Origin: Hyphomicrobiaceae bacterium
Lineage (GTDB): Bacteria; Pseudomonadota; Alphaproteobacteria; Rhizobiales; Hyphomicrobiaceae
NCBI GenBank assembly: GCA_025359165.1
Contig: JANYHG010000001.1
Coordinates: 1 to 37,208 of the forward strand
Length of the DNA: 37,208 nt
Reading direction: 5' to 3'
In this document: one piece after another, positions 214 through 37,208 of the stretch
How the letters are laid out: each line of letters begins with the position of its first letter
How positions within the stretch are numbered: position 1 is the first letter of the stretch
The notes under the pieces: model-generated
The model's database searches: none
What the model was told of the DNA's origin: nothing
What the model saw: only the letters and a program-made list of their open reading frames with translations
Translations under genes and position numbers: made by a program

Positions 214-1800
214 CTAATGCGCGTCCACTGGAGGCGCGTTCGAGGCGGGCCGATCGATGAAATAGACCGCGAGCGCCAACGCCCAATAGAGCAGCGCCAG
301 GACCAGAAAAACGTCGGCGAACGCGAGAACCACCCCCTGCCTGTGCGTCAGCTGATACAACTGCTTGAGCGCCATGTCTTGCGCGTCCGAACCGAACGCA
401 GACAGGTTGCGCGTCAGATTGGACAAGGTCTCGACCACGGGCAACCGCGACCATGTCAGGCTTTCGTGCAGGCGGGCGGTGTGGAGATCGGTGCGGTCGT
501 TGAGCATCGTGTTGAGCACCGCAAGTCCCACCGCGCCACCGAGGTTGCGTGTCAGGTTGAACAATCCAGACGCGTTTTTCAGCCGTTCGGGCGGCAACGC
601 TCCGAGAGCGATGTTGTTGACGGGGATCATGGCGAACATCAGCCCGAAGCCGCGCAAGACCTGCGGCACGAGGAGTTCCCAGAAATCCCAGTCGCGGGTG
701 ATGCCGGTCATCAGGTAACTGCTGAGCGCCAGCGAGAACAGACCGATCACCATCATGATGCGCGGATCGATCTTGCCCATCAATTTACCGGCGAGTGGTG
801 CCGTAAAAAATTGCGTCAGCCCCGTCACGAACAGCGCTTCGCCGATCATGAGCGCGTTGTAGCCGCGGATCTGGCCGAGATAGACCGGGTAGAGGTAGGT
901 GAGGCCGTAGAGACCGATGCCGACGGTGAACGAGAAAATCGAGCCGAGCGCGAAATTGCGGTTCGTGAACGCGCGTATGTCGACGATCGGCTCGTCGGCC
1001 GTGAGCACGCGCCAGAAGAACACGACCGCCGAAATCGCCGACAGCCAGGCCAGCAGGAATACGACCTCGTCGTTGAACCAATCGTTTCGCGGGCCCTCTT
1101 CGAGGACGTATTCGAGCGCGCCGAGGAACCCCGCCATCGAGATCAAGCCGACCCAGTCGAAGCGGTCGAGCAGACTCCAGTTGGGCTGGTCGAAATCGAT
1201 GCGCGTGTAAGCGGCATACGTGACGATAATGCCCGGAATGACGTTGATGAAAAACAGCCAGTGCCAGGACAGCGCGTCGGTCAGGTAGCCGCCCACGGTC
1301 GGGCCGATGGTCGGCGCGAGTGTGGCGACAAGACCGATCAGCGGTGTCACCGACGGCAACATCGACTTGGGAAAGATCGAGTAGGAGGTGGCGAACACGG
1401 TCGGGATCATGCCGCCGCCGATGAAGCCCTGCACAGCGCGCCAGAAAATCATGCCGGAGATCGACGTAGAGAGTCCGCACATCAGGCTGGCGAATGTAAA
1501 TCCTCCGGCCGCGATCGTGAACATGTAACGCGTGCCGATGGCGCGCGACAGGAAGCCGGAAAGCGGGATCATGATCACTTCGGCAATCAGGTAGGATGTC
1601 TGAACCCAGGTAATTTCGCTCGCACTTGCCGACAAGCCGGCCTGTATTTCCGACAACGACGCCGAAACGATCTGGATATCGAGAATGGCCATGAACATGC
1701 CGAGGACCATCAGCAGGAACGTGACCAGCTTGCGCTTGTCGACGCCTGCACCGGTCGCGACAGGAACTGCGGGGACTGCGGGCATTGTTGTCGTGACCAT
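214..1800 (-). CDS. emrB: DHA2-family MFS efflux transporter (EmrB/QacA type)
   Basis: This 528-residue polytopic inner-membrane protein is a drug:H+ antiporter of the 14-helix DHA2 family, which usually exports hydrophobic toxins. The N-terminal cytoplasmic stretch is short, and the first helix carries LDIQIVSASL (about residues 40-49), the family's motif after the first transmembrane span. TIGPTVGGYLT is the antiporter motif C of helix 5. Length matches EmrB (about 510 residues). The ATG at 1800 lies two bases after the stop codon of the upstream HlyD-type gene, so the two are surely co-transcribed and should form an EmrAB-like pair working with an outer-membrane TolC-type channel encoded elsewhere. 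The divergent TetR gene at 3170 is the likely regulator. Substrate cannot be read from the sequence. Confidence 0.93.
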   Translation of the reverse strand: MVTTTMPAVPAVPVATGAGVDKRKLVTFLLMVLGMFMAILDIQIVSASLSEIQAGLSASASEITWVQTSYLIAEVIMIPLSGFLSRAIGTRYMFTIAAGGFTFASLMCGLSTSISGMIFWRAVQGFIGGGMIPTVFATSYSIFPKSMLPSVTPLIGLVATLAPTIGPTVGGYLTDALSWHWLFFINVIPGIIVTYAAYTRIDFDQPNWSLLDRFDWVGLISMAGFLGALEYVLEEGPRNDWFNDEVVFLLAWLSAISAVVFFWRVLTADEPIVDIRAFTNRNFALGSIFSFTVGIGLYGLTYLYPVYLGQIRGYNALMIGEALFVTGLTQFFTAPLAGKLMGKIDPRIMMVIGLFSLALSSYLMTGITRDWDFWELLVPQVLRGFGLMFAMIPVNNIALGALPPERLKNASGLFNLTRNLGGAVGLAVLNTMLNDRTDLHTARLHESLTWSRLPVVETLSNLTRNLSAFGSDAQDMALKQLYQLTHRQGVVLAFADVFLVLALLYWALALAVYFIDRPASNAPPVDAH

Positions 1801-28141: not shown

Positions 28142-28564
28142 TCAGTCGATCAGTTTGCCCGGGATCGCGCGCGAGTGGCCGCGAAATTCTGCGATGACGG
28201 TGCCGGTCTCGTCACGCACCGTGACGTCGTAAATGCCGGAGCGTTCGGCACGGTGACGTTCGCGCGCCTCGGCCGTCAACACCATCCCGAGCTTGCCGGC
28301 GGCCACGTAAGTGATCTGACACTGTTGTGCGACGTTGCGCTGGTTATAGCTGTTGCATGCAAAAGCGAAGGCGCTGTCGGCGAGCGTGTAGATGAAGCCT
28401 CCGTGCGCCAGTCCGTGCCCGTTGACCATCGCCTGCGTGACGGGCATCGATAGCACCGCGATACCGGGCTCGACGCGCACGAGCGTCATTCCAAGACCGC
28501 GGCTCGCGTGGTCGTCGGCCCACATCGCCCTGGCGGATCGCGTGGCTACGTCGTCGTCGGTCAT
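28142..28564 (-). CDS. paaI: PaaI-type hydroxyphenylacetyl-CoA thioesterase
   Basis: This 140-residue hot-dog-fold thioesterase matches PaaI, which clears dead-end phenylacetyl-CoA derivatives. Characteristic segments are MVNGHGLAHGGFIYTLADSAFAFACNSY with the conserved Asn/Gly-His-Gly and Asp, followed by AQQCQITYVAAGKLGMVLTAEA and DVTVRDETGTVIAEFRGHSR. PaaI proteins end IPGKLID-like exactly as here. The ATG at 28564 (MTDDDVATRSARAMWADDH) begins eight bases after the paaG stop, so the two are in one operon. A long upstream extension of the frame is inside paaG and not plausible. Confidence 0.9.
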   Translation of the reverse strand: MTDDDVATRSARAMWADDHASRGLGMTLVRVEPGIAVLSMPVTQAMVNGHGLAHGGFIYTLADSAFAFACNSYNQRNVAQQCQITYVAAGKLGMVLTAEARERHRAERSGIYDVTVRDETGTVIAEFRGHSRAIPGKLID

Positions 28565-28571
28565 CGAAGTC

Positions 28572-29372
28572 TCACCCACGTCCTGTGAACCTGGGGCTGC
28601 GCTTTTCGAGAAACGCCTTGATGCCTTCGACGTTGTCGGGCGTGCCGATGAGACGGCCCTGGCCCACGCGTTCGACTTCCAACTGCTGGTCGAGCGTGTT
28701 GGTCTCTGACGCATTCAGCGCGGCCCTGATCGCCACCAGCGCGCCCGTCGGGGCCGCCGCGAACTTCCGCGCCATCGCCTCGGCAGTTTCCATCAATCTG
28801 ACGTCTTCGACCGCTTGATAGATCATCCCCCAGCTCGCTGCCGTCGTGGCGTCGATCGGTTCGGCGAGCATGGCGAGCGCGCGCGCCCGGGCGGGTCCGA
28901 CCAAGCGCGGTAACGTCCATGTGCCGCCCGCGTCAGGCATCAGACCTATTTTCGCGAAAGCCTGCAGAAACTTCGCCGAATGCGCTGCGATCACGATATC
29001 GCACGCGAGTGCAAGGTTGGCACCCGCGCCCGCCGCCACACCGTTGACGGCGCAGATCACAGGCACCGGAAATGCGGCCAGCCGCCGGATCAGTGGATTG
29101 TAGTAGAGTTCCAGCCGGTCGACTGGTTTGGCACCAGAGGCGCTCGAAGCTGCGCTGTCGGCGAGATCCTGGCCGGCGCAGAAGCCGCGACCAGCACCGG
29201 TCAAGATCACGGCGCGACAAGCTGTATCGGCTTCTGCCGCATCCAAGGCTGCCCGCAAACCCAAGTGCAGAGCTTCGGTAAAACTGTTCAAGCGCTCGGG
29301 ACGGTTCAAGGTGATGGTACGAAACCCGGCGTGGGTACTCGTCAGAACTGGCGCTGCTTCAGACGTCGACAT
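28572..29372 (-). CDS. paaG: Ring-1,2-epoxyphenylacetyl-CoA isomerase PaaG (crotonase fold)
   Basis: This 266-residue cytosolic crotonase of phenylacetate degradation converts the ring epoxide to oxepin-CoA. Match to E. coli PaaG is extensive: LNRPERLNSFTEALH, LTGAGRGFCAGQDLADSA, YYNPLIRRLAAFPVPVICAV, NGVAAGAGANLALACDIVIA, FAKIGLMPDAGGTWTLPRLV with the catalytic Asp, WGMIYQAV, AALNASETNTLDQQLEVER and FLEKRSPRFTGRG. The start at 29372 (MSTSEAAPVLTS) has GGAG eight bases upstream. It overlaps none of its neighbours and leads a two-gene unit with paaI. The rest of the pathway (paaABCDE, paaK, paaZ, paaJ) is not in the window. Confidence 0.94.
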   Translation of the reverse strand: MSTSEAAPVLTSTHAGFRTITLNRPERLNSFTEALHLGLRAALDAAEADTACRAVILTGAGRGFCAGQDLADSAASSASGAKPVDRLELYYNPLIRRLAAFPVPVICAVNGVAAGAGANLALACDIVIAAHSAKFLQAFAKIGLMPDAGGTWTLPRLVGPARARALAMLAEPIDATTAASWGMIYQAVEDVRLMETAEAMARKFAAAPTGALVAIRAALNASETNTLDQQLEVERVGQGRLIGTPDNVEGIKAFLEKRSPRFTGRG

Positions 29373-29880
29373 AGGAGGGCTCCGCGTGCTGCCGAATAGT
29401 GCGAGATGTCACCTGCCGGACGATACACAGTTTGCGGCGGTGCGCAAAACAGGGTGCTACGCTTCGCGGTCGAATAATCGGCTCGCGACTGTTGCGCATT
29501 CGACACGCGAGGAATCGATTTCGACGTCCCTGACCTGAGCGAATACGGTCGAAGTTTATGCAACTCGGGCAAAAGCTTGGCCGATTGAACTAGCTCTTTC
29601 GCGCGACCTGACACTTGGAAGGTAACGCAATCTCAATTATAGTAATCGAGGGGGCGCAACTCATTGTCCGGATTACGCTGGTTGGAAGCCTTCCTGAAAG
29701 GCTTGCGGCACCGGCGAAAGGTGCGTGACATCGGGTGTGTCTGACATAAGGCCTGCGGCAGCTAGACTGCGGTAGGTAGAATGAGCGGATTTGTGTGACC
29801 GGAGGATGACTCCGGGGGTTCCTGCAGGCAAGGCCAGGCTGAAGTCCCGGACCCGCCGCAGGAGTGTTGGAGTTGGTGGC
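29373..29880. other. Intergenic region with sigma-70-like promoter, no gene seen
   Basis: These 508 bases separate divergent paaG and the OmpA/BON gene. No supported frame is present. The left half carries paaG's control region. A promoter-like pair lies at 29615-29643. A weak hairpin AGCCTT...AAGGCT surrounds 29692-29707. An in-frame TTG at 29791 and ATG at 29806 could extend the OmpA gene leftward. Confidence 0.5.
29615..29643 (+). promoter_or_regulatory. Sigma-70-like promoter for the OmpA/BON gene
   Basis: TTGGAA at 29615-29620 is followed after 17 bases by TATAGT at 29638-29643, which match the -35 and -10 consensus at four and five of six positions. Initiation would be near 29650, leaving a leader of about 230 bases before the ATG at 29881. 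The upstream part is AT-richer than its surroundings. Strength is unknown. Confidence 0.55.
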
Positions 29881-32145
29881 ATGAGATGCAATCCGGCGCG
29901 TTGGTTGTGGGGTTTGCTGCCGGTGGCGCTGCTCGCATGGGGTGCGGCGCAAGTCATGCACACCGATATCGAGGCCGATCTCAAGGCTCGTGTCGACGAA
30001 CAGCTCAAAGGGTCCGGATTCAAGTGGGCCCGCACCGGTTTCTCCGGTCGCGATGGGCTGCTGACGGGAACCGCGACGGACGAGGCTGATCCGGGACGCG
30101 CCTACGACATCGCCCGCAGCATCTGGGGCGTGCGCGTGGTCGACAACAAGGCCGCGATAATCGAGAAGGTCGAGACCTACGAGTGGTCGGTCGCGCGCAA
30201 CGGCACCAGCGTCAAGCTCGGCGGATACGTCCCCAACGAGACCGTGCGTGCCGACATCGTGAAGCTGGCAAAATCCAGTTTTGCCGGTGCCGACGTCGTC
30301 GACGAAATGAAACTGGCGCGTGGCGTGCCCTCGCCAGACACTTGGCTGAGCGCGGTCAACTTCGGTATCAAGCAGGTTGCGGCGCTCAAATCGGGAGAGG
30401 CCAAGCTGAGTGGCCTTGCGCTCACTGTCGCGGGTGCGGCAGCCGATCTCAAAGGGTACAGCGGCGTCAAGACCGCACTCGCGAACGACTTGCCCAAGGG
30501 CGTGAAACTGACCGACGACCGCGTCATGGCACCGGTCGTCAAGCCGTTCGTGTGGGCCGCCAATCATGCTGGCAATCAAGTGACGCTTACAGGCTACGTC
30601 CCCGGCGAACGCGCCCGGACGGACGTCGTCGCAGCAGCCAAAGCTGCATTCCCGCGTCTCGGTGTCGTCGACCGTATGGAAATCGCGGACGGGGCAGCGA
30701 CCGGGCATCTCGCGGCCGTTACGCTTGCGCTCAAGCAACTGGCGGCCCTCGAAGACGGTGCTGCCGAAATTCGCGATCAGGCGCTGTCGTTGCAGGGAAT
30801 GGCGGCCGATGCCAAGATCGCTGACGCAACACGACAGACACTGGCCAAATCGATTCCGGCAGGGTTTCGTCTGACCGAGGCCATCAAGGCGCGTGAAGTG
30901 CTGCCGAAGGTCGTCAGTCCCTATACCACTGCGCTGACAGCAGACAGTGCTGCCGTCGTCTTGACAGGCTATGCACCCTCGGATGCGGCCCGAGAGCAAC
31001 TCGCGCAGAGCGCACGGTCGCGCTTTCCTGGCCGCCGCGTCGACAACCGTGTGGAAGTCGCAGCAGGCGCACCCGAGGGATGGCTGCGCTGCATGGACGG
31101 CGGAATGGCCGGCGTCGGTCGTATCGGTGCCGGCAAAATCGCCCTGACGGATCGCCGGCTGGATGTCGCCGGATCAACCGACGACGAAGACCTCGCGGGT
31201 GCTTTACCGGCCGATATCAAAACTGCGGTCCGCAGCGATTGCGACGCCAATGTCCGTATCGACGTCTTGGCCGAAGCAGTGCCGGAACTCGTCTGGCGCG
31301 CGATTTACAACGGCGCGGAACTCGTGCTCGACGGGGACGTCTCGAGCAGTGCAGCCAAAAGCCTGCTCGCGGCGTCGGGGTCGCGTCTATTCCCTGGCAA
31401 AGCGGTCGTCGACCGGATGCGGATCGTCGAGACGCGCACCCGCAAGTGGACGTTGGCGGCGGAACAGGGATTGATATCGCTGGCGGAACTGCAGAAGGGC
31501 GAGGTCGAACTCAATCGCCAGCAACTCACCATAAGCGGACAGGCCGCAACGGCTGCCAACGTCACACGCGTGCAAGACCGTGTCGCGCGCGGCTTGCCCA
31601 AGGGCTATGCCGGTCGCGAACACGTTGTTGTCGCGTCCGTGGCGGCGGCACCGGTCGCAACGCCGCCGCCCGCCGTAGTTACGCCACCCCCCCCTCCGGT
31701 GGCGCCGCCGGTTACCCCGCCGGCCGCACAGCCGGCCGCCGTCGCACCGGCCACACGGGCACCGCTGTCGCCGGTCGCCGTCGCCTGTCAGGGTGCCCTG
31801 CAGTCGACTGCGCGTGAAGGCATGATCAGGTTCGAGCGCGCGAGTGCGACCCTGGCGGCCGAGAGTTTCGCAACGCTTTCGAAGTTGGCGGGCGTGGTGA
31901 AATCCTGTCCCGACGTAACTGTCGAAATCGAGGGACACACGGATTCCGAAGGCACGCCCGAACGCAATCAGGCGCTCTCTGATCGGCGCGCGGCGTCCAT
32001 CGTCGATTTCCTGCAACGCGGCGGTGTCGATCCGAAAAAGCTGGTTGCCGTCGGCTATGGCGAGACACGCCCTTTGGTGCCCAACGATACCCCGCAAAAT
32101 CGGGCCAAGAACCGCCGTATCGAATTCACCGTCAAGGCGCAGTGA
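29881..32145 (+). CDS. Envelope protein with four BON-like repeat units and C-terminal OmpA domain
   Basis: The 754-residue protein starts with a signal-anchor (ARWLWGLLPVALLAWGAAQV), so the rest is periplasmic. A first BON-like segment follows (about 25-95). Then a unit of about 110 residues recurs four times, starting near 100, 222, 347 and 468. Each has a Y/VxLxGYVP-type BON strand, a V-DxM turn, and a second half ending in LPKG/IPAG (third copy weaker). A Pro/Ala linker occupies about 590-630, and a C-terminal OmpA domain has VEIEGHTDSEG with Asp688 and LSDRRAAS with Arg703; their spacing of 15 matches the diaminopimelate-binding pair of OmpA. BON domains bind phospholipid and OmpA domains peptidoglycan, so this should bridge membrane and cell wall, similar in plan to mycobacterial ArfA. 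The start could be up to 30 codons earlier (29791). Confidence 0.88.
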   Translation: MRCNPARWLWGLLPVALLAWGAAQVMHTDIEADLKARVDEQLKGSGFKWARTGFSGRDGLLTGTATDEADPGRAYDIARSIWGVRVVDNKAAIIEKVETYEWSVARNGTSVKLGGYVPNETVRADIVKLAKSSFAGADVVDEMKLARGVPSPDTWLSAVNFGIKQVAALKSGEAKLSGLALTVAGAAADLKGYSGVKTALANDLPKGVKLTDDRVMAPVVKPFVWAANHAGNQVTLTGYVPGERARTDVVAAAKAAFPRLGVVDRMEIADGAATGHLAAVTLALKQLAALEDGAAEIRDQALSLQGMAADAKIADATRQTLAKSIPAGFRLTEAIKAREVLPKVVSPYTTALTADSAAVVLTGYAPSDAAREQLAQSARSRFPGRRVDNRVEVAAGAPEGWLRCMDGGMAGVGRIGAGKIALTDRRLDVAGSTDDEDLAGALPADIKTAVRSDCDANVRIDVLAEAVPELVWRAIYNGAELVLDGDVSSSAAKSLLAASGSRLFPGKAVVDRMRIVETRTRKWTLAAEQGLISLAELQKGEVELNRQQLTISGQAATAANVTRVQDRVARGLPKGYAGREHVVVASVAAAPVATPPPAVVTPPPPPVAPPVTPPAAQPAAVAPATRAPLSPVAVACQGALQSTAREGMIRFERASATLAAESFATLSKLAGVVKSCPDVTVEIEGHTDSEGTPERNQALSDRRAASIVDFLQRGGVDPKKLVAVGYGETRPLVPNDTPQNRAKNRRIEFTVKAQ

Positions 32146-32206
32146 TCGGCCTTTTTTTGCGCCGGACTGCTCCCTTTGAACCGCTAGAGACGCACTGGAA
32201 ACGACC

Positions 32207-32311
32207 ATGGACTATCTGCTGATCAAGCTCTGGTACTGGGTGCTGATGGCGCTGGCGATCGGGTTCGTAACCGGGTGGCTGTCGTGCGGCCGGGTGAACG
32301 ACAAGCGCTGA
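32207..32311 (+). CDS. 34-residue single-span membrane protein (frame interrupted by TGA)
   Basis: The ATG at 32207 opens a 34-codon frame reading MDYLLIKLWYWVLMALAIGF, then VTGWLSCGRVNDKR, and ending TGA at 32309-32311. It is one hydrophobic helix with a GW-C-GR end, followed by basic residues. Its architecture, short leader plus helix plus basic tail, is the same as the N terminus of the next protein at 32449. No strong Shine-Dalgarno sequence is apparent (GGAAACG nine bases before). Beyond the TGA the same frame stays open for 46 more codons until 32450-32452, where its next stop overlaps the start of the downstream gene. So the gene is either short by nature, broken, or read through. Confidence 0.5.
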   Translation: MDYLLIKLWYWVLMALAIGFVTGWLSCGRVNDKR

Positions 32312-32448
32312 TATGTCTCCGAGTCGGTCGCTCCGGACGTATCCAGGGCTGCCGGCCGACGGGTGGGACGGGAATATCCGGTTCGCGTGCTGGTGATGAA
32401 CGACGGAAGCCGGCACGCGTTGGCCGGGACAGTGTTGGAGAGTGACGA

Positions 32449-34776
32449 ATGACTGCGCTTTTACTGCAAACTCTGCTGCTGATGGTTCCGGCGTTCTTCA
32501 TCGGTGCGGCCCTGGCGTGTGGACTTCGCAAGATGCTGCGGCCTGCTGAGGAAGCATCGCTCGCGCCCGCTCCGGCCCGTGCACCGGCAACGAAAGTCGA
32601 GCCTTTGCCGCAGTACGCCGAGCGGGCGACGCCTGCCCCCGCCACGCCGATCGTGAACGCACCGCCGGCCGCAGTGGTGCCAGCTAAGCCCGCCGCTGCT
32701 GCAGCACCTCAAGCGCCGGCCAACCGTTTCGACGAGACGCTGTCGGCGCGTCCGGCAGCCGCACCGGTAAGTGCCGTGCAGCCGACTCCCGTTGCCGCAG
32801 CCAGGGCAGCGGACGCCAAGCCAGCAGAAGTTTCGAAAAGTCCGGCACCGCCGCCTCCACCCGCACCGACGGCAGCCAGGCCCGATCAGGTCGCGCCGCC
32901 CGCTGGGAAACCTGCCGCACCGGTCACGGCGACGGCAGAAATGGTCGCGAGCGCCGCTGCCGCCATGGCTGCAGCCGCTGCGGCGGTAGCCGCGCAGGCG
33001 CGGGCTGCGACTGCTCCCGTCAGCGTCGCCGCGCCCGCACCGAAGGCAGCCGCACCCGCGTCGGCACCAGTGGCGAAGCCTGTTGCGCCAACTGCACCGG
33101 TGGCACCTGCTGCCGCTTTGCCAGTTGCGCCTGCGGTTGTCGTAACTCCCGCCATAGCTCCCACCGTGGCTCCGGTTATCAGGTCGGTCGTCGAGCCACC
33201 TGCGCGCGAGATGATGCTGCAGTCCAAGCCGACTGCCGATGACCTGACGCGCATCAGCGTTATCGACACGGCGGTCAACGCCCAACTCGATAAACTCGGT
33301 GTCACGCGCTTCAGCCAGATCGCCGCATGGCGCAAGTCGGATGTCGACACCGTCAGCCGGTCGCTTGGTTTTCAGGGCCGTATCGAGCAGGAAAACTGGA
33401 TCGAGCAGGCGCAAATCCTGGCTGGCGGCGGCGAGACCTTTTATTCTGCACGCCGTTCGGCGGCCACGACCGCGCCGGGCGTATCGGCTCCCGCGAGTCG
33501 CCCGGCTGTGGTCTCGACCGGTGCTGCGGTCGCTGCGGTGACACCAAGCCCGCAAGTGCAGCCGGCCACCCCGCAGCCAGCGGCACTCCAATCGGCGGCA
33601 GCGTCATCGTCGGTCGCAACGCCGCCGAACGTCGAACTACGCGCCGCGTTCGCCGACCGGGCATCCGCTCCTGCCGCGTTCAGCGCACCTCCGTCGACGC
33701 TGCCATTGCCTCTGGATCGTGCCGTCGTGCACCCGTCGCCCGTCTCGGCCCCCGTCTCGGCCCCCGTCTCGGCGTCCGTCAAGGCCGTCCCGGCGGCGGT
33801 TGCAGCAACGGTGACACCTACCCCGCCCGTAAAGGCACCGGCACAGACGGCGATGCCTTCAGCCGTAGGTGCCGCAGCCGCTGCGGCCATGGCGGCTGCG
33901 ACAGCGGTCGCCGCAAAATCCGCCCCGCCACCGGTAGCTGCGACGCCGGCACCTGTCGCTCCGCCTGTCCCCGCATCCACCACAGGCGGACTGCCGACGC
34001 CCGCCACCTCGGTGCGTCCGGCCATGGCCCCGTCACGCGATGCGCTGCAACGGATCGGCGCGATCAATGGCGAGATCGAGAAAATGTTGGGCGCGCACGG
34101 CGTCACACGGTTCACGCAGATCGCCGGCTGGAGCCCCGTCGAGATCGAGCGCTTCGACCGATTGCTCGGCTCGCAGGGGCGCATAACCCGAGAAAACTGG
34201 GTCGAGCAGGCTCAGATCCTGGCCAAGGGCGGCGATACCGCGCATTCGCGCGACTACGATCGTCGGCTGTCGGAAAGCCAGCGCGACGCCAGCGTCAGGC
34301 CGAAAAGCATTACCGAAGCGATCAAGGCCAATGCCGGTGCCGCAGCTGCAGCCGCAGCAGCCAGTGTGGCCCCGGCAGCCCCGCTCGCCGGTCGACCTGA
34401 TATCGCCGGTCTGAGGTCGGTGCGTTCTGAAGCCTACCGTCCCTCGCCGAGCGAGATTGCGACGGCAGCTGCTGCCGCCGCTGGCGCGGGTAGCGCCCGG
34501 GTCGTACGCTCTGCGGAGATCGACGACCTCAAACGCATCCGAGGCATCGGCGTGCTGATCGAGAAGCGGCTCAACTCTGTCGGGATCGTGTCGTATGGCC
34601 AGATTGCCGACTGGACCACCGACGACATCGATCGCGTCAGTGCCAGCCTTGACTTCAAAGGTCGCATCGAGCGCGAGAACTGGGTCGAGCAGGCGCGCAT
34701 CCTGTCGGCGGGCGGTCAGACCGAGTTCTCGCGGCGGGTCGATCGCGGCGAAGTCGAGACGTCGAAGTCGCGTTGA
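32449..34776 (+). CDS. Membrane-anchored Ala/Pro-rich protein with three helix-hairpin-helix-like domains
   Basis: This 775-residue protein has an N-terminal hydrophobic helix (LLQTLLLMVPAFFIGAALAC, about 4-23) followed by basic residues and long Ala/Pro-rich spacers. Three copies of a 75-residue domain are spaced along it, at about 261-336, 528-605 and 690-770. Each has a helix pair around an L-x-R-I block, then F/YxQIAxW and GRI...ENW-EQAxIL. Only the last copy keeps a true HhH core (RIRGIGVLIEKRLNSVGI); in the first two the G-I-G is replaced (SVID, GAIN). The domain is known to me from C-terminal parts of alphaproteobacterial NuoE and L21-like proteins, where its role is unknown. A basic region after the helix suggests the bulk is cytosolic (positive-inside), although a periplasmic location is not excluded. 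Confidence 0.85.
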   Translation: MTALLLQTLLLMVPAFFIGAALACGLRKMLRPAEEASLAPAPARAPATKVEPLPQYAERATPAPATPIVNAPPAAVVPAKPAAAAAPQAPANRFDETLSARPAAAPVSAVQPTPVAAARAADAKPAEVSKSPAPPPPPAPTAARPDQVAPPAGKPAAPVTATAEMVASAAAAMAAAAAAVAAQARAATAPVSVAAPAPKAAAPASAPVAKPVAPTAPVAPAAALPVAPAVVVTPAIAPTVAPVIRSVVEPPAREMMLQSKPTADDLTRISVIDTAVNAQLDKLGVTRFSQIAAWRKSDVDTVSRSLGFQGRIEQENWIEQAQILAGGGETFYSARRSAATTAPGVSAPASRPAVVSTGAAVAAVTPSPQVQPATPQPAALQSAAASSSVATPPNVELRAAFADRASAPAAFSAPPSTLPLPLDRAVVHPSPVSAPVSAPVSASVKAVPAAVAATVTPTPPVKAPAQTAMPSAVGAAAAAAMAAATAVAAKSAPPPVAATPAPVAPPVPASTTGGLPTPATSVRPAMAPSRDALQRIGAINGEIEKMLGAHGVTRFTQIAGWSPVEIERFDRLLGSQGRITRENWVEQAQILAKGGDTAHSRDYDRRLSESQRDASVRPKSITEAIKANAGAAAAAAAASVAPAAPLAGRPDIAGLRSVRSEAYRPSPSEIATAAAAAAGAGSARVVRSAEIDDLKRIRGIGVLIEKRLNSVGIVSYGQIADWTTDDIDRVSASLDFKGRIERENWVEQARILSAGGQTEFSRRVDRGEVETSKSR

Positions 34777-34944
34777 GCGGTGGCGCGGCTCGACTGTTCC
34801 GCCCCTCGTGCGGCGCAACAAACGACCGCGAGGCCACACCGCAGCGCCTTGCAAAGACTGACAGCGAAGAGTGCGCCAGTTGACGCCACTGCCGAACTCG
34901 TGAACCTTTGGGCTGCAACCTCAGCTGTTTCAAAGGATTCCGGC

Positions 34945-36156
34945 ATGCCTGCCGACCGAAGTCATGCCGGCCTCTCTGCTGCCGGTGCGCGACCATTGAA
35001 GATGACCGCCAAGGACATCTTGGGGCACTTGGTTGCATTCGATACGACGAGCGACAAGACGAATATTCCGATGGCCGAGTGGATCCGCGCATATCTTGCC
35101 GGATTAGGCATCGAGAGCCATCTGCTGCCGTCCGGCAATGGCATTCACACCAACCTGTTCGCGACCGTTCCGGCCAAGGGAGGGGGCACCGCCGGCGGTA
35201 TCGGTCTGTCCGGGCACATGGATGTCGTGCCCACGACCGGTCAGCCCTGGGAAACCGATCCATACGAGATGGTCGAAAAGGGCTCGCGCCTGTATGGCCG
35301 CGGCACCGCCGACATGAAGGGGTTTCTCGCCTGCATGCTGGCGTCCGTGCCGGCCTTCCAGGCGCGGCCCTTGTCGCAACCGATCCACCTCATCTTTTCC
35401 TATGACGAAGAAGTGGGCTGCACCGGCGTGATCCCGATGGTCGCCGAGTTCGGCAAGACATTGCCAAAGCCCGACATCGTCATCGTCGGCGAGCCCAGCA
35501 TGATGTCGGTCGTCGACGGCCATAAGGGTGGCTCGCGTTTTCGCACCGAGATCATCGGCAAGGATGCCCACTCTTCGCGACCGGAACTCGGCGTCGGTTC
35601 GATCTTCGTCGCATCCGACCTGATCCAGGAGCTGAAACGCATCGAGGCGCGCGTGCAGCGAGAGTATCCCGCCCCGCGTTTCGCGCCGCCCTATCCGACG
35701 ATCACGGTCAGCTCCATCGAAGGCGGTATCGCCCACAACATCATCCCGCCGCGCTGTTCCTTCACGTGGGGCGTCCGCCTGACACCCGGCTTCGACAACA
35801 GCGAGGCCCCATGCGCCCTGCAAGCCTATGCCGAACGCGAACTGCTACCAGCGATGCGCCGCGTGCATCCCGATTGCGACATCCGAACCGAGTTGCTGGG
35901 CTTGCTGCCCGCGTTCGCATCGGGGGAGGGCTCACCCGCGACGTCGCTGGCGCTGAAGCTCGCGGGACAGAACGACGTCTACACCGTGCCCTACGGCACC
36001 GAGGCCAGCCACTTCCAGGCCGCCGGCGTTTCGTCCGTCGTCTGTGGTCCCGGCGATATCGCGCAGGCCCATCAGCCCAACGAGTTCATCGAAATCGCCG
36101 AGCTCGACAACTGCATGGCGTTTCTCGGACGTGTGCGCGATTGGGCGGCTGCCTGA
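34945..36156 (+). CDS. argE: Acetylornithine deacetylase
   Basis: This 403-residue M20A metalloenzyme removes acetate from N-acetylornithine in arginine synthesis. Motifs are complete: GLSGHMDVVP (His91, Asp93), GRGTADMKGFLACML (Asp123), SYDEEVGCTG (catalytic Glu155, metal Glu156), GEPSMMSVVDGHKG, KDAHSSRPELG and GTEASHF, with the terminal GPGDIAQAHQPNEFIEI. The sequence fits ArgE better than DapE because of the HKGG and ASHF blocks. The ATG at 34945 (MPADRSHAGLSAAG) has AAAGGA eight bases upstream; ATG at 35002 (MTAKDILGHLVAFDTT) would be the alternative and is closer to usual homologue starts. It follows the HhH-like gene by 168 bases. Confidence 0.92.
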   Translation: MPADRSHAGLSAAGARPLKMTAKDILGHLVAFDTTSDKTNIPMAEWIRAYLAGLGIESHLLPSGNGIHTNLFATVPAKGGGTAGGIGLSGHMDVVPTTGQPWETDPYEMVEKGSRLYGRGTADMKGFLACMLASVPAFQARPLSQPIHLIFSYDEEVGCTGVIPMVAEFGKTLPKPDIVIVGEPSMMSVVDGHKGGSRFRTEIIGKDAHSSRPELGVGSIFVASDLIQELKRIEARVQREYPAPRFAPPYPTITVSSIEGGIAHNIIPPRCSFTWGVRLTPGFDNSEAPCALQAYAERELLPAMRRVHPDCDIRTELLGLLPAFASGEGSPATSLALKLAGQNDVYTVPYGTEASHFQAAGVSSVVCGPGDIAQAHQPNEFIEIAELDNCMAFLGRVRDWAAA

Positions 36157-36189
36157 GACTTCATCGCGACGCGGACCCTTGAAACGCCA

Positions 36190-36222
36190 CACCCCGCAGC
36201 GGCTGGAAGCCACCACGGGGTG
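36190..36222. repeat. Stem-loop after argE
   Basis: CACCCCG at 36190-36196 and CGGGGTG at 36216-36222 are complementary with a loop of 19 bases. It precedes the stronger hairpin at 36243-36268. Together they separate the convergent argE and vWA genes. Confidence 0.5.
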
Positions 36223-36242
36223 CGATGCAGGAGGGGCATCAG

Positions 36243-36271
36243 GCCCTGACGGATGTTGTCGTCAGGGCTTT
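36243..36271 (+). terminator. Probable terminator between convergent argE and vWA genes
   Basis: GCCCTGACG (36243-36251) and CGTCAGGGC (36260-36268) form a perfect nine-base-pair stem with an eight-base loop, followed by TTT at 36269-36271 on the plus strand. It lies about 90 bases after the argE stop and 14 bases before the vWA gene's stop codon on the other strand. A short T-run makes it a moderate terminator for argE. Confidence 0.6.
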
Positions 36272-36281
36272 GGCATTGGCA

Positions 36282-37208
36282 TCATTGCGTGATGCGCAGG
36301 GTGGAGATCTTCAGTGCGATGTCACGGAAGGCAGCGCGGAGTGCGTCGCCGGTCGAGGCATTGTAGAAATGGCTCGTGTCGGTGGCGCAGTTCGTCAGTA
36401 GCGTCTGTGCCGTCGAACTCAGGCCGCCACCCGCAGAAAACGCAACCGTATAGACTTCGATGTTGGTGCCGTCCTGCTTCATGGCATTGCACAGTGCAAT
36501 GGCCTGATTGCTGGAGGTGTCGTTACCGGGACTGCCGCCGAAGTAGGTCATTTTGCCGGCGCTTGTGTATTCCTGGTTATAGTCACCGTCGGTCATCAGA
36601 ATGGCGATTTTTTTGAGCTTAATTTTGGTCGGGTCGCCATGCTTGGTATTGGGGTTGTAAGCGAGATCGTAAGGCGCAGCCTGATTTACGGTCGGCCATA
36701 GGGAATTCCAATTCGGCGACAGCATGTACCAAGCCCAGGCCGTACCCAGATGACCCGACGTGCCGCCTTGTGGCTGCAGGGTCGTTATCAGGTTGTGCAG
36801 CACGGTCTTGTTCGTCGTCAGTGGCGTGGCAACCGCGCCCGGTCCGACGTCGCACTCGGTGCCCCAACCGGACCACAAGAACTCCTGCATGACGTAGCCG
36901 TTCGCGGCACTCGGGGCAGCATCCGTGTACTTGTTCACACCCAAACGCTCGGCGACGCAGTATTTGCCCGGATATTTATAGAAGTTGTACCCATAGGCAG
37001 AGCCTGACTGTACTGGCGTCGTGACCGTGGAACCGGTAGCCGCCAGAAAGGCTGCAGCCGTCGGCAACTGAACATCCTGCGCGAACGGCACGATGGCCAC
37101 CTTCGACGTCTGTTTGCTTTGGTCGGCCCAGATCAGAATGTCGATGGCGTCGCTGGCAGCGGACTGCAGATCGAGGATCTTCTGGCCAGCCATCGAACCG
37201 GTGATGTC
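36282..37208 (-). CDS. Tad-type vWA-domain protein (TadG-like), 5'-truncated by window edge
   Basis: The visible 309 residues are the C-terminal part of a larger protein. The frame stays open to the last base and begins DITGSMAGQKILDLQ, the MIDAS signature DxTGSM of a von Willebrand A domain, so the start lies right of the window. MTDGDYNQEY supplies the second MIDAS loop, and an insert with two cysteines (YCVAERLG and WGTECDVG) sits between them. The end IALKISTLRITQ is the usual close of TadG-like pilus-assembly proteins in Hyphomicrobiales. Such proteins have an N-terminal TadE-like helix and are secreted to or anchored in the envelope for Flp pili. Confidence 0.85.
   Translation of the reverse strand, partial: DITGSMAGQKILDLQSAASDAIDILIWADQSKQTSKVAIVPFAQDVQLPTAAAFLAATGSTVTTPVQSGSAYGYNFYKYPGKYCVAERLGVNKYTDAAPSAANGYVMQEFLWSGWGTECDVGPGAVATPLTTNKTVLHNLITTLQPQGGTSGHLGTAWAWYMLSPNWNSLWPTVNQAAPYDLAYNPNTKHGDPTKIKLKKIAILMTDGDYNQEYTSAGKMTYFGGSPGNDTSSNQAIALCNAMKQDGTNIEVYTVAFSAGGGLSSTAQTLLTNCATDTSHFYNASTGDALRAAFRDIALKISTLRITQ

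Follow-up and report, generated by a model that had tools for sequence, protein, structure and literature searches.

The window examined here is a stretch of 37,208 nucleotides from a Hyphomicrobiaceae bacterium (assembly GCA_025359165.1, contig JANYHG010000001.1). It contains three adjacent, co-oriented genes that encode a BON/OmpA protein (gene 1), a single-span microprotein (gene 2), and a membrane-anchored protein with HhH-like domains (gene 3), separated by gaps of 61 nt (genes 1–2) and 137 nt (genes 2–3) (Table 1). A preliminary description of this DNA had reported three neighboring plus-strand genes with these domains, and both the domains and the coordinates are confirmed. The same applies to the three HhH-like copies in the 775-residue protein, which a model of the copies themselves recovers at E-values between 2e-40 and 4e-41. 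The set had also been called a possible uncharacterised module, but it is not without relatives: its layout is that of the mycobacterial arfABC genes (the ompATb operon, Rv0899–Rv0901).

Table 1. Features of the three-gene locus (positions refer to the window, or to gene 1 residues where marked aa; ORF, open reading frame; HMM, hidden Markov model).
Feature	Position	Strand	Basis
Gene 1 (ArfA-like, BON/OmpA), 754 aa	29881..32145	+	ORF, Pfam, NCBIfam
Gene 1, N-terminal membrane anchor			
Gene 1, BON domain	aa 32-91		
Gene 1, four ArfA-domain-like units	aa 106-206, 229-326, 357-436, 477-574		HMM built from three of them
Gene 1, Pro/Ala linker			
Gene 1, OmpA domain	aa 650-745		
Gene 2, single-span microprotein of 34 aa (MDYL-type; predicted N-out/C-in)	32207..32311	+	ORF, relatives, dN/dS
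Gene 3, 775 aa, with a single N-terminal membrane anchor (predicted N-out/C-in) and three HhH-like domains on long linkers rich in Pro/Ala	32449..34776	+	
HhH-like copy 1, hairpin GhG lost	33235..33453	+	own-model match; hairpin by eye
HhH-like copy 2, hairpin GhG lost	34036..34254	+	own-model match; hairpin by eye
HhH-like copy 3, hairpin GIG kept	34519..34737	+	own-model match; hairpin by eye
Promoter-like pair 5' of gene 1, not above chance	29615..29643	+	scan
Second promoter-like pair 5' of gene 1, not above chance	29741..29768	+	scan

The gene 1 protein matches the Pfam families OmpA (3.9e-23), BON (6.9e-16, four stretches), and BON_like (1.9e-11). Against the NCBIfam ArfA/OmpATb model NF051434 it scores 130.4 bits (cut-off 81), summed over four stretches, and its closest solved chain is Rv0899 (2l26, 9.7e-23). 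The OmpA and BON families place gene 1 putatively on the periplasmic side. Two OmpA paralogs in the same genome, L103 (G000:C170) and L104 (G000:C86), match the OmpA end of gene 1 with 41–44% identity; these are long DUF937-OmpA proteins, not BON proteins. Rv0899-like proteins are reportedly widespread in nitrogen-fixing bacteria, as described by Marassi in a 2011 paper that is known to us by title, so the family of gene 1 is already known. The available part of a study on aluminium stress in Rhizobium phaseoli names OmpATb for a single-BON protein and mentions no operon (PMC8909678).

The three genes form one conserved module. In a first sample of 60 genomes (the present one included), from which 60 stretches were fetched and their gene positions compared, 52 genomes have a gene 1 match at 1e-20 and 59 have a match of the HhH-like domain at 1e-4. 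The triad, with separate or fused genes, is present in 46 of the 60 genomes, with genes 1 and 3 as neighbors on one strand; G012 contributes two of the resulting 47 loci, which were mostly chosen for having their matches on one contig. The small gene is separate in 45 of these loci, including the window, and fused to gene 3 in two (L092 and L114). Gene 1 is truncated at a contig end in L091, L097, and L102, as is gene 3 in L056. Among the six other genomes with a gene 1 match, the contig of G003 ends within gene 3, after genes 1 and 2, and that of G005 ends after gene 2. G021 and G030 have a gene 1 match, are fragmentary, and were left out of the triad count. A gene-1-like ORF without genes 2 and 3 as neighbors is found in G011 and G047, and the second BON/OmpA ORF of G053 (L113) is of the same kind. 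Flanking genes of the window are rarely retained in 50 other loci (tblastn at 1e-8; acetylornithine deacetylase-like, 0; EthD, 0; enoyl-CoA hydratase, 2; PaaI, 2; VWA, 2), indicating that the triad itself is the conserved unit.

The wider samples agree with this association. A model of the small protein finds matches at 0.01 in 124 of 249 genomes of the order, and the ArfA model at 0.001 in 156 of 249, with no single stretch over its cut-off. Beyond the first 60 genomes, the matches listed include 64 genomes for ArfA, 72 for the small protein, and 40 for both; in 37 of these 40, the small gene lies within 4 kb downstream of gene 1 on the same strand (exceptions: G083, G133, and G140). A survey of gene neighborhoods had been named beforehand as the check on the grouping, which scattered homologs would have contradicted; the homologs are found together. 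In a class-wide sample, the small protein was found in 11 of 190 genomes, mostly weakly, with the present genome and two others of the same order among them. Further fusions of the small protein to the HhH-like protein follow gene 1 in L254 (357 aa) and L256 (493 aa), and another is present in Rhizobium lusitanum (L323, 397 aa). Those relatives of known name that have gene 1 and a fused partner belong to the Hyphomicrobiales, in agreement with the order named in the preliminary description. Outside the order, in the class-wide sample, L255 (G491) and L257 (G610) encode a related helix whose charged tail is longer after a gene-1-like ORF; in L262 (G561), the neighbor of the gene-1-like ORF has a gene-3-like anchor and a DUF4332 domain.

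Gene 2 is a real gene under purifying selection. Because it recurs between two large genes in relatives and has ratios of nonsynonymous to synonymous divergence (dN/dS) of 0.13–0.40 (six pairs from four loci of one genus; dN 0.14–0.25, dS 0.45–1.84), the small ORF is beyond chance. In relatives, the protein encoded between genes 1 and 3 follows a pattern close to MDYLxxKLxWYxxxAFxxGxxVGWxSC. Pfam gave only weak matches below cut-off; the LapA domain (PF06305) was rejected at 18.2 bits against a gathering cut-off of 28, and so were AimP and mitoregulin as names, both weak and below their cut-offs. A plasmid search with the 34-aa protein gave no match at E-values up to 1, and neither gene 2 nor gene 3 has a match in PHROGs. 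A conserved gene of only 34 residues is likely to be overlooked by annotation. The membrane anchors of genes 2 and 3 are likely but not certainly homologous, because 12 of 45 gene 3 anchors score higher against the small-protein HMM than all of their 200 shuffled versions, and in 27 of 45 no more than 10 of 200 shuffles reach the real score. One hhalign comparison of the gene 3 anchor with the small protein gave 90.9%.

The HhH-like part of gene 3 is shared with other proteins. In NCBIfam, it matches the tails of NuoE (NF009040, 2.9e-63), L21 (NF008915, 1.6e-46), phasin PhaH (3.4e-40), and S2 (NF008966, 3.5e-35), with three stretches each; the whole-protein cut-offs of the NuoE, L21, and S2 models are not reached, the tail region alone matching. 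These carriers (PRK12373, PRK12278, PRK12311, and NF045508) have the same domain as gene 3 and are soluble, whereas gene 3 is membrane-anchored and has the domain in triplicate. The preliminary description had noted NuoE- and L21-like carriers, to which S2 and phasin, and also L19, are now added. Within the present genome, the HhH-like model at 1e-4 finds five places, three of them inside gene 3. A protein search locates the others as C-terminal tails of S2 and L19 only, and both carriers are confirmed by Pfam (Ribosomal_S2, 5.2e-90; Ribosomal_L19, 1.4e-38). Among the matches listed outside the triads of relatives, the 40 tail stretches, with carriers judged by printed N-termini, comprise 16 NuoE-like, 11 L21-like, five L19-like, three S2-like, one polyhydroxybutyrate (PHB) depolymerase, and four others. 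The PHB depolymerase (L217, G041:C141; PHB_depo_C, 1.2e-93) ends in the HhH-like domain, so a storage-polymer enzyme has the same tail.

Among solved chains, gene 3 is best matched by protein-O from the RC-LH1 complex of Dinoroseobacter shibae (8yy9_O, phmmer 7.3e-23). According to the available text of that study, protein-O likewise consists of a membrane part, a flexible loop, and the same C-terminal domain, which is not visible in the RC-LH1 map, and the functions of its shared domains are termed obscure (PMC12079452). Unlike gene 3, protein-O has one matched domain stretch and belongs to a photosynthetic complex. An AlphaFold2 prediction for the three window copies (mean pLDDT 65.9) and a Foldseek search with it against the PDB (nothing below 0.001; best match a SAM domain at 0.85) were not used as evidence.

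In the two alignments, the copies of gene 3 share 46–49% identity with the reference copy, and the number of copies per protein ranges from one to seven across loci. A tryptophan at column 55 is present in all 154 aligned domains. Most last copies of gene 3 (45 of 47) and most tails (40 of 43) retain the GhG of the hairpin, compared with seven of 64 earlier copies, indicating that the internal copies have changed and that the last copies resemble the tails.

Membrane topology was assessed from the lysine/arginine bias around the predicted helix. This bias points to C-in for 33 of 43 small proteins (C-out, none; ties, 10) and for 42 of 46 gene 3 proteins (C-out, three; tie, one). Exactly three helices are predicted in three of the fusions (L092, L114, and L254), and L256 has two above threshold. 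A third helix would be accounted for because joining two parallel N-out/C-in anchors needs one extra helix. From the charge bias and the three-helix fusions, the HhH-like domains are expected to be cytoplasmic and not periplasmic; of the three products, only the BON/OmpA protein would lie outside. A C-in gene 3 also fits the cytoplasmic location of other carriers of the domain, the ribosomal proteins and NuoE.

The comparison with arfABC rests on several shared traits. Besides the window, 46 loci show the A-B-C order on one strand, two of them with genes 2 and 3 fused, and the mycobacterial loci L116–L118 have the same order. In both systems the first protein combines BON and OmpA domains (that of the window passing NF051434), the second is a single-span protein (about 50 aa and MDF-type in mycobacteria, 34 aa in the window), and the third has a single helix at its N-terminus, followed by a low-complexity linker and a domain at the C-terminus. 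There are also differences. Gene 1 has four ArfA-domain-like units and a BON domain, whereas the Mycobacterium palustre protein matches as one stretch; and the third protein has HhH-like copies in the window but a sunset domain in mycobacterial ArfC. A scan with a piece of Rv0899 found three named mycobacterial loci among 80, each encoding ArfA, a 49–51-aa MDFVIQW-type protein, and a third protein of the helix–linker–domain build just described. The mycobacterial partners scanned are named ArfB and ArfC (sunset variant) by NCBIfam; the ArfB model is over its cut-off in three of 148 genomes of the actinobacterial class sample.

Resemblance among the small proteins extends to sequence, if weakly. 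When a model from 43 small proteins was run against 375 ORFs of five mycobacterial loci, the top eight were five ArfB and three ArfC. Composition shuffles reached the real score in 0–8 of 1000 cases for each ArfB and 0–14 of 1000 for each ArfC start; the gene 3 anchor model gave weaker results against ArfB and ArfC (0–164 of 1000). The small protein thus resembles ArfB weakly, position by position, beyond its composition.

The conserved triad, its layout, the charge bias, and the sharing of the domain are computed observations. On these we propose, with about an even chance of being right, that the genes are an ArfABC-type operon for a trans-envelope complex, in which gene 3 displays a docking domain shared with tail-bearing machines at the inner membrane. 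As judged from the families, gene 1 would be anchored in the inner membrane, span the periplasm with BON-type units, and hold peptidoglycan with its OmpA domain. Genes 2 and 3 would be its inner-membrane partners, with similar parallel N-out/C-in anchor helices, and the HhH-like domains of gene 3 would reach into the cytoplasm on long flexible linkers. Through several copies of a shared docking domain, this wall-anchored hub and the tail-bearing machines, namely ribosomes (S2 and L19 here; L21 in relatives) and complex I (NuoE in relatives), might either encounter a common partner at the inner membrane or contact one another there. Complex formation, the holding of the wall by OmpA, and docking or ligand sharing by the HhH-like domain are what we infer. 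The single lipid- or peptidoglycan-associated scaffold envisaged in the preliminary description survives as a conserved module, given the triad counts, the adjacency in further genomes, and the fusions, but not as a wholly periplasmic one, as the charge bias places the HhH-like domains C-in.

Several findings weigh against this proposal or call for caution. No single stretch of gene 1 reaches the NF051434 cut-off, the best in the present genome scoring 49.8 bits. Gene 2 has no match to the ArfB model NF051435 at E-values up to 10, and ArfC_N (NF051455) and the ArfC sunset model (NF051433) are absent from the five NCBIfam matches of gene 3 at E-values up to 0.1. Because genes 2 and 3 lack matches to the curated ArfB and ArfC models, the triad is described from its sequence features as laid out like ArfABC and is not claimed as ArfABC. 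With the small-protein model, ArfB proteins score 5.1–12.2 bits, against 11.0 for the best of 6122 control ORFs, and the other two ArfC proteins score 1.9 and 0.1 bits. For gene 1, with starts as called, a helix is above threshold in just 22 of 46 proteins and the bias is mixed (9/7/6); for gene 3, L064 and L083 have two hydrophobic stretches in the first 160 residues. The HhH-like domain occurs in seven of eight genomes without a gene 1 match at 1e-20, so the tails are independent of the operon. In the printed sequences of the present S2 (L002, G000:C81) and L19 (L003, G000:C165), the tails have a degenerate hairpin without GhG, accounting for two of the three tails that lack it. Moreover, the domain can be absent or replaced: in Methylobacterium bullatum (L324), the ORF after gene 1 is of 132 aa and has a fused membrane part and no HhH-like domain, and in G561 the anchored protein has DUF4332 in its place, the sole match over cut-off in that genome.

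One alternative is that the HhH-like domains bind nucleic acid, such that gene 3 would connect the inner membrane, itself anchored to the wall, with the nucleoid or RNA and the ribosomal tails would serve contact with rRNA or mRNA, with no docking. The gene 3 homolog L083 passes the Pfam cut-off of HHH_5 (34.6 vs. 27 bits) and a fused homolog passes that of IMS_HHH (25.2 vs. 24.4), both consistent with the HhH fold family; in gene 3 itself, HHH_5 is the only Pfam match and lies below its gathering cut-off (E-value 0.088; 13.7 vs. 27). The GhG hairpin usually contacts phosphate, and its retention in last copies and tails fits this explanation. However, the earlier copies lose the hairpin yet retain W and QA, more like a protein surface, and some carriers, such as the NuoE-like proteins and a PHB depolymerase, have no known action on nucleic acid. 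We consider nucleic acid binding doubtful.

The locus may instead be a general envelope-integrity module, with BON units on anionic lipid, OmpA on the wall, and a HhH-like domain that just stabilizes or oligomerizes gene 3. The BON domains of gene 1 are shared with DolP and OsmY, which are not known to have an OmpA domain or partner genes of the triad kind. In the accessible portion of one report, Escherichia coli DolP is a lipoprotein of two BON domains, the second of which binds anionic phospholipid (PMC7806268), as this explanation would have it. Variable copy number and the absence or replacement of the domain in some loci are what a loose oligomerizer could also show. Confinement of the domain at 1e-4 to gene 3, S2, and L19 in the present genome suggests a shared partner instead, and a mere role in stability appears rather unlikely. 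The function claimed for ArfABC in mycobacteria, a channel or a system of acid adaptation, with genes 2 and 3 as accessories and an incidental cytoplasmic domain, seems similarly improbable here: the layout is the same, a proteomics table, as excerpted, links ArfA and ArfC (the latter of unknown function) to acid tolerance (PMC4885829), and the available passages of another paper report ammonia secretion, but those passages also call porin activity not obvious and controversial (PMC3816664), and the ribosomal-type tail domain of the third protein is left unexplained.

Returning to the proposed docking hub, a comparable arrangement is found in Actinobacteria. The sunset domain, unrelated to the HhH-like domain and without a match in gene 3, is likewise a linker-borne C-terminal domain common to an arf third protein and ribosomal proteins (ArfC, L4, L17, L20, and S2). 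The NCBIfam library has sunset variants of L17, L4, S2, and L20; in the actinobacterial sample, the domain is present in 17 of 148 genomes, with carriers including L4 (458.9 bits vs. 385) and, by eye, L17-like proteins. G394 has an L4-sunset protein plus a membrane-anchored sunset protein (L312), the anchor of which matches the small-protein model at 1.8e-4; L312 fails the ArfC model, and no BON/OmpA was found in the 3.1 kb around it. L312, L318 (G408), and L319 (G281), all actinobacterial, share one build: a single helix at the N-terminus, then a linker and a sunset domain. At odds with the parallel, in two mycobacteria the sunset domain at 1e-4 is found only on ArfC and on another membrane protein, where it ends the tail after the helix, and not on ribosomal proteins. 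The repeats of this second protein are presumably LGFP repeats. A general rule that the ribosomal and anchored proteins of a genome have a tail domain in common proved incomplete: it holds in the genome of the window (S2 and L19) and fails in the two mycobacteria, G561, and M. bullatum, and in G394 the shared domain is present with no BON/OmpA in those 3.1 kb.

A bolder extension is that two phyla independently gave an Arf-type third protein the kind of domain appended to ribosomal proteins (HhH-like in Alphaproteobacteria, e.g., R. lusitanum; sunset in Actinobacteria), and that the Arf complex is a general wall-anchored platform whose shared tail domain would bring ribosomes, complex I, and storage-granule proteins together at the inner membrane. 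We regard it as unlikely; if true, it would amount to a bacterial trans-envelope organizer of the cytoplasm. The tail domain of ribosomal proteins and NuoE and an arf-like third protein come together in a single conserved putative operon, and Actinobacteria have an unrelated domain at the corresponding position, which makes a direct test possible. A 2011 paper by Song, known to us by title and from passages of others, is said to deal with the ompATb operon. A literature search that covered few subscription journals found no function for the sunset domain, the ribosomal/NuoE tails, or the third protein of arfABC.

As for expression signals, GGAG is present 8 bases upstream of the starts of genes 1 and 3, and gene 2 has just GGAA (by eye). 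A promoter-like pair had been noted upstream of the set; a scan of positions 29373–36300 found two such pairs, but this number is at chance level (0.9 ± 1.0 expected). A terminator scan was also at chance level. Upstream of the triad, on the opposite strand, PaaG-like and PaaI-like genes (phenylacetate breakdown) are located at 28142–29372; this pair adjoins the triad in just two of 50 other loci (L076 and L077).

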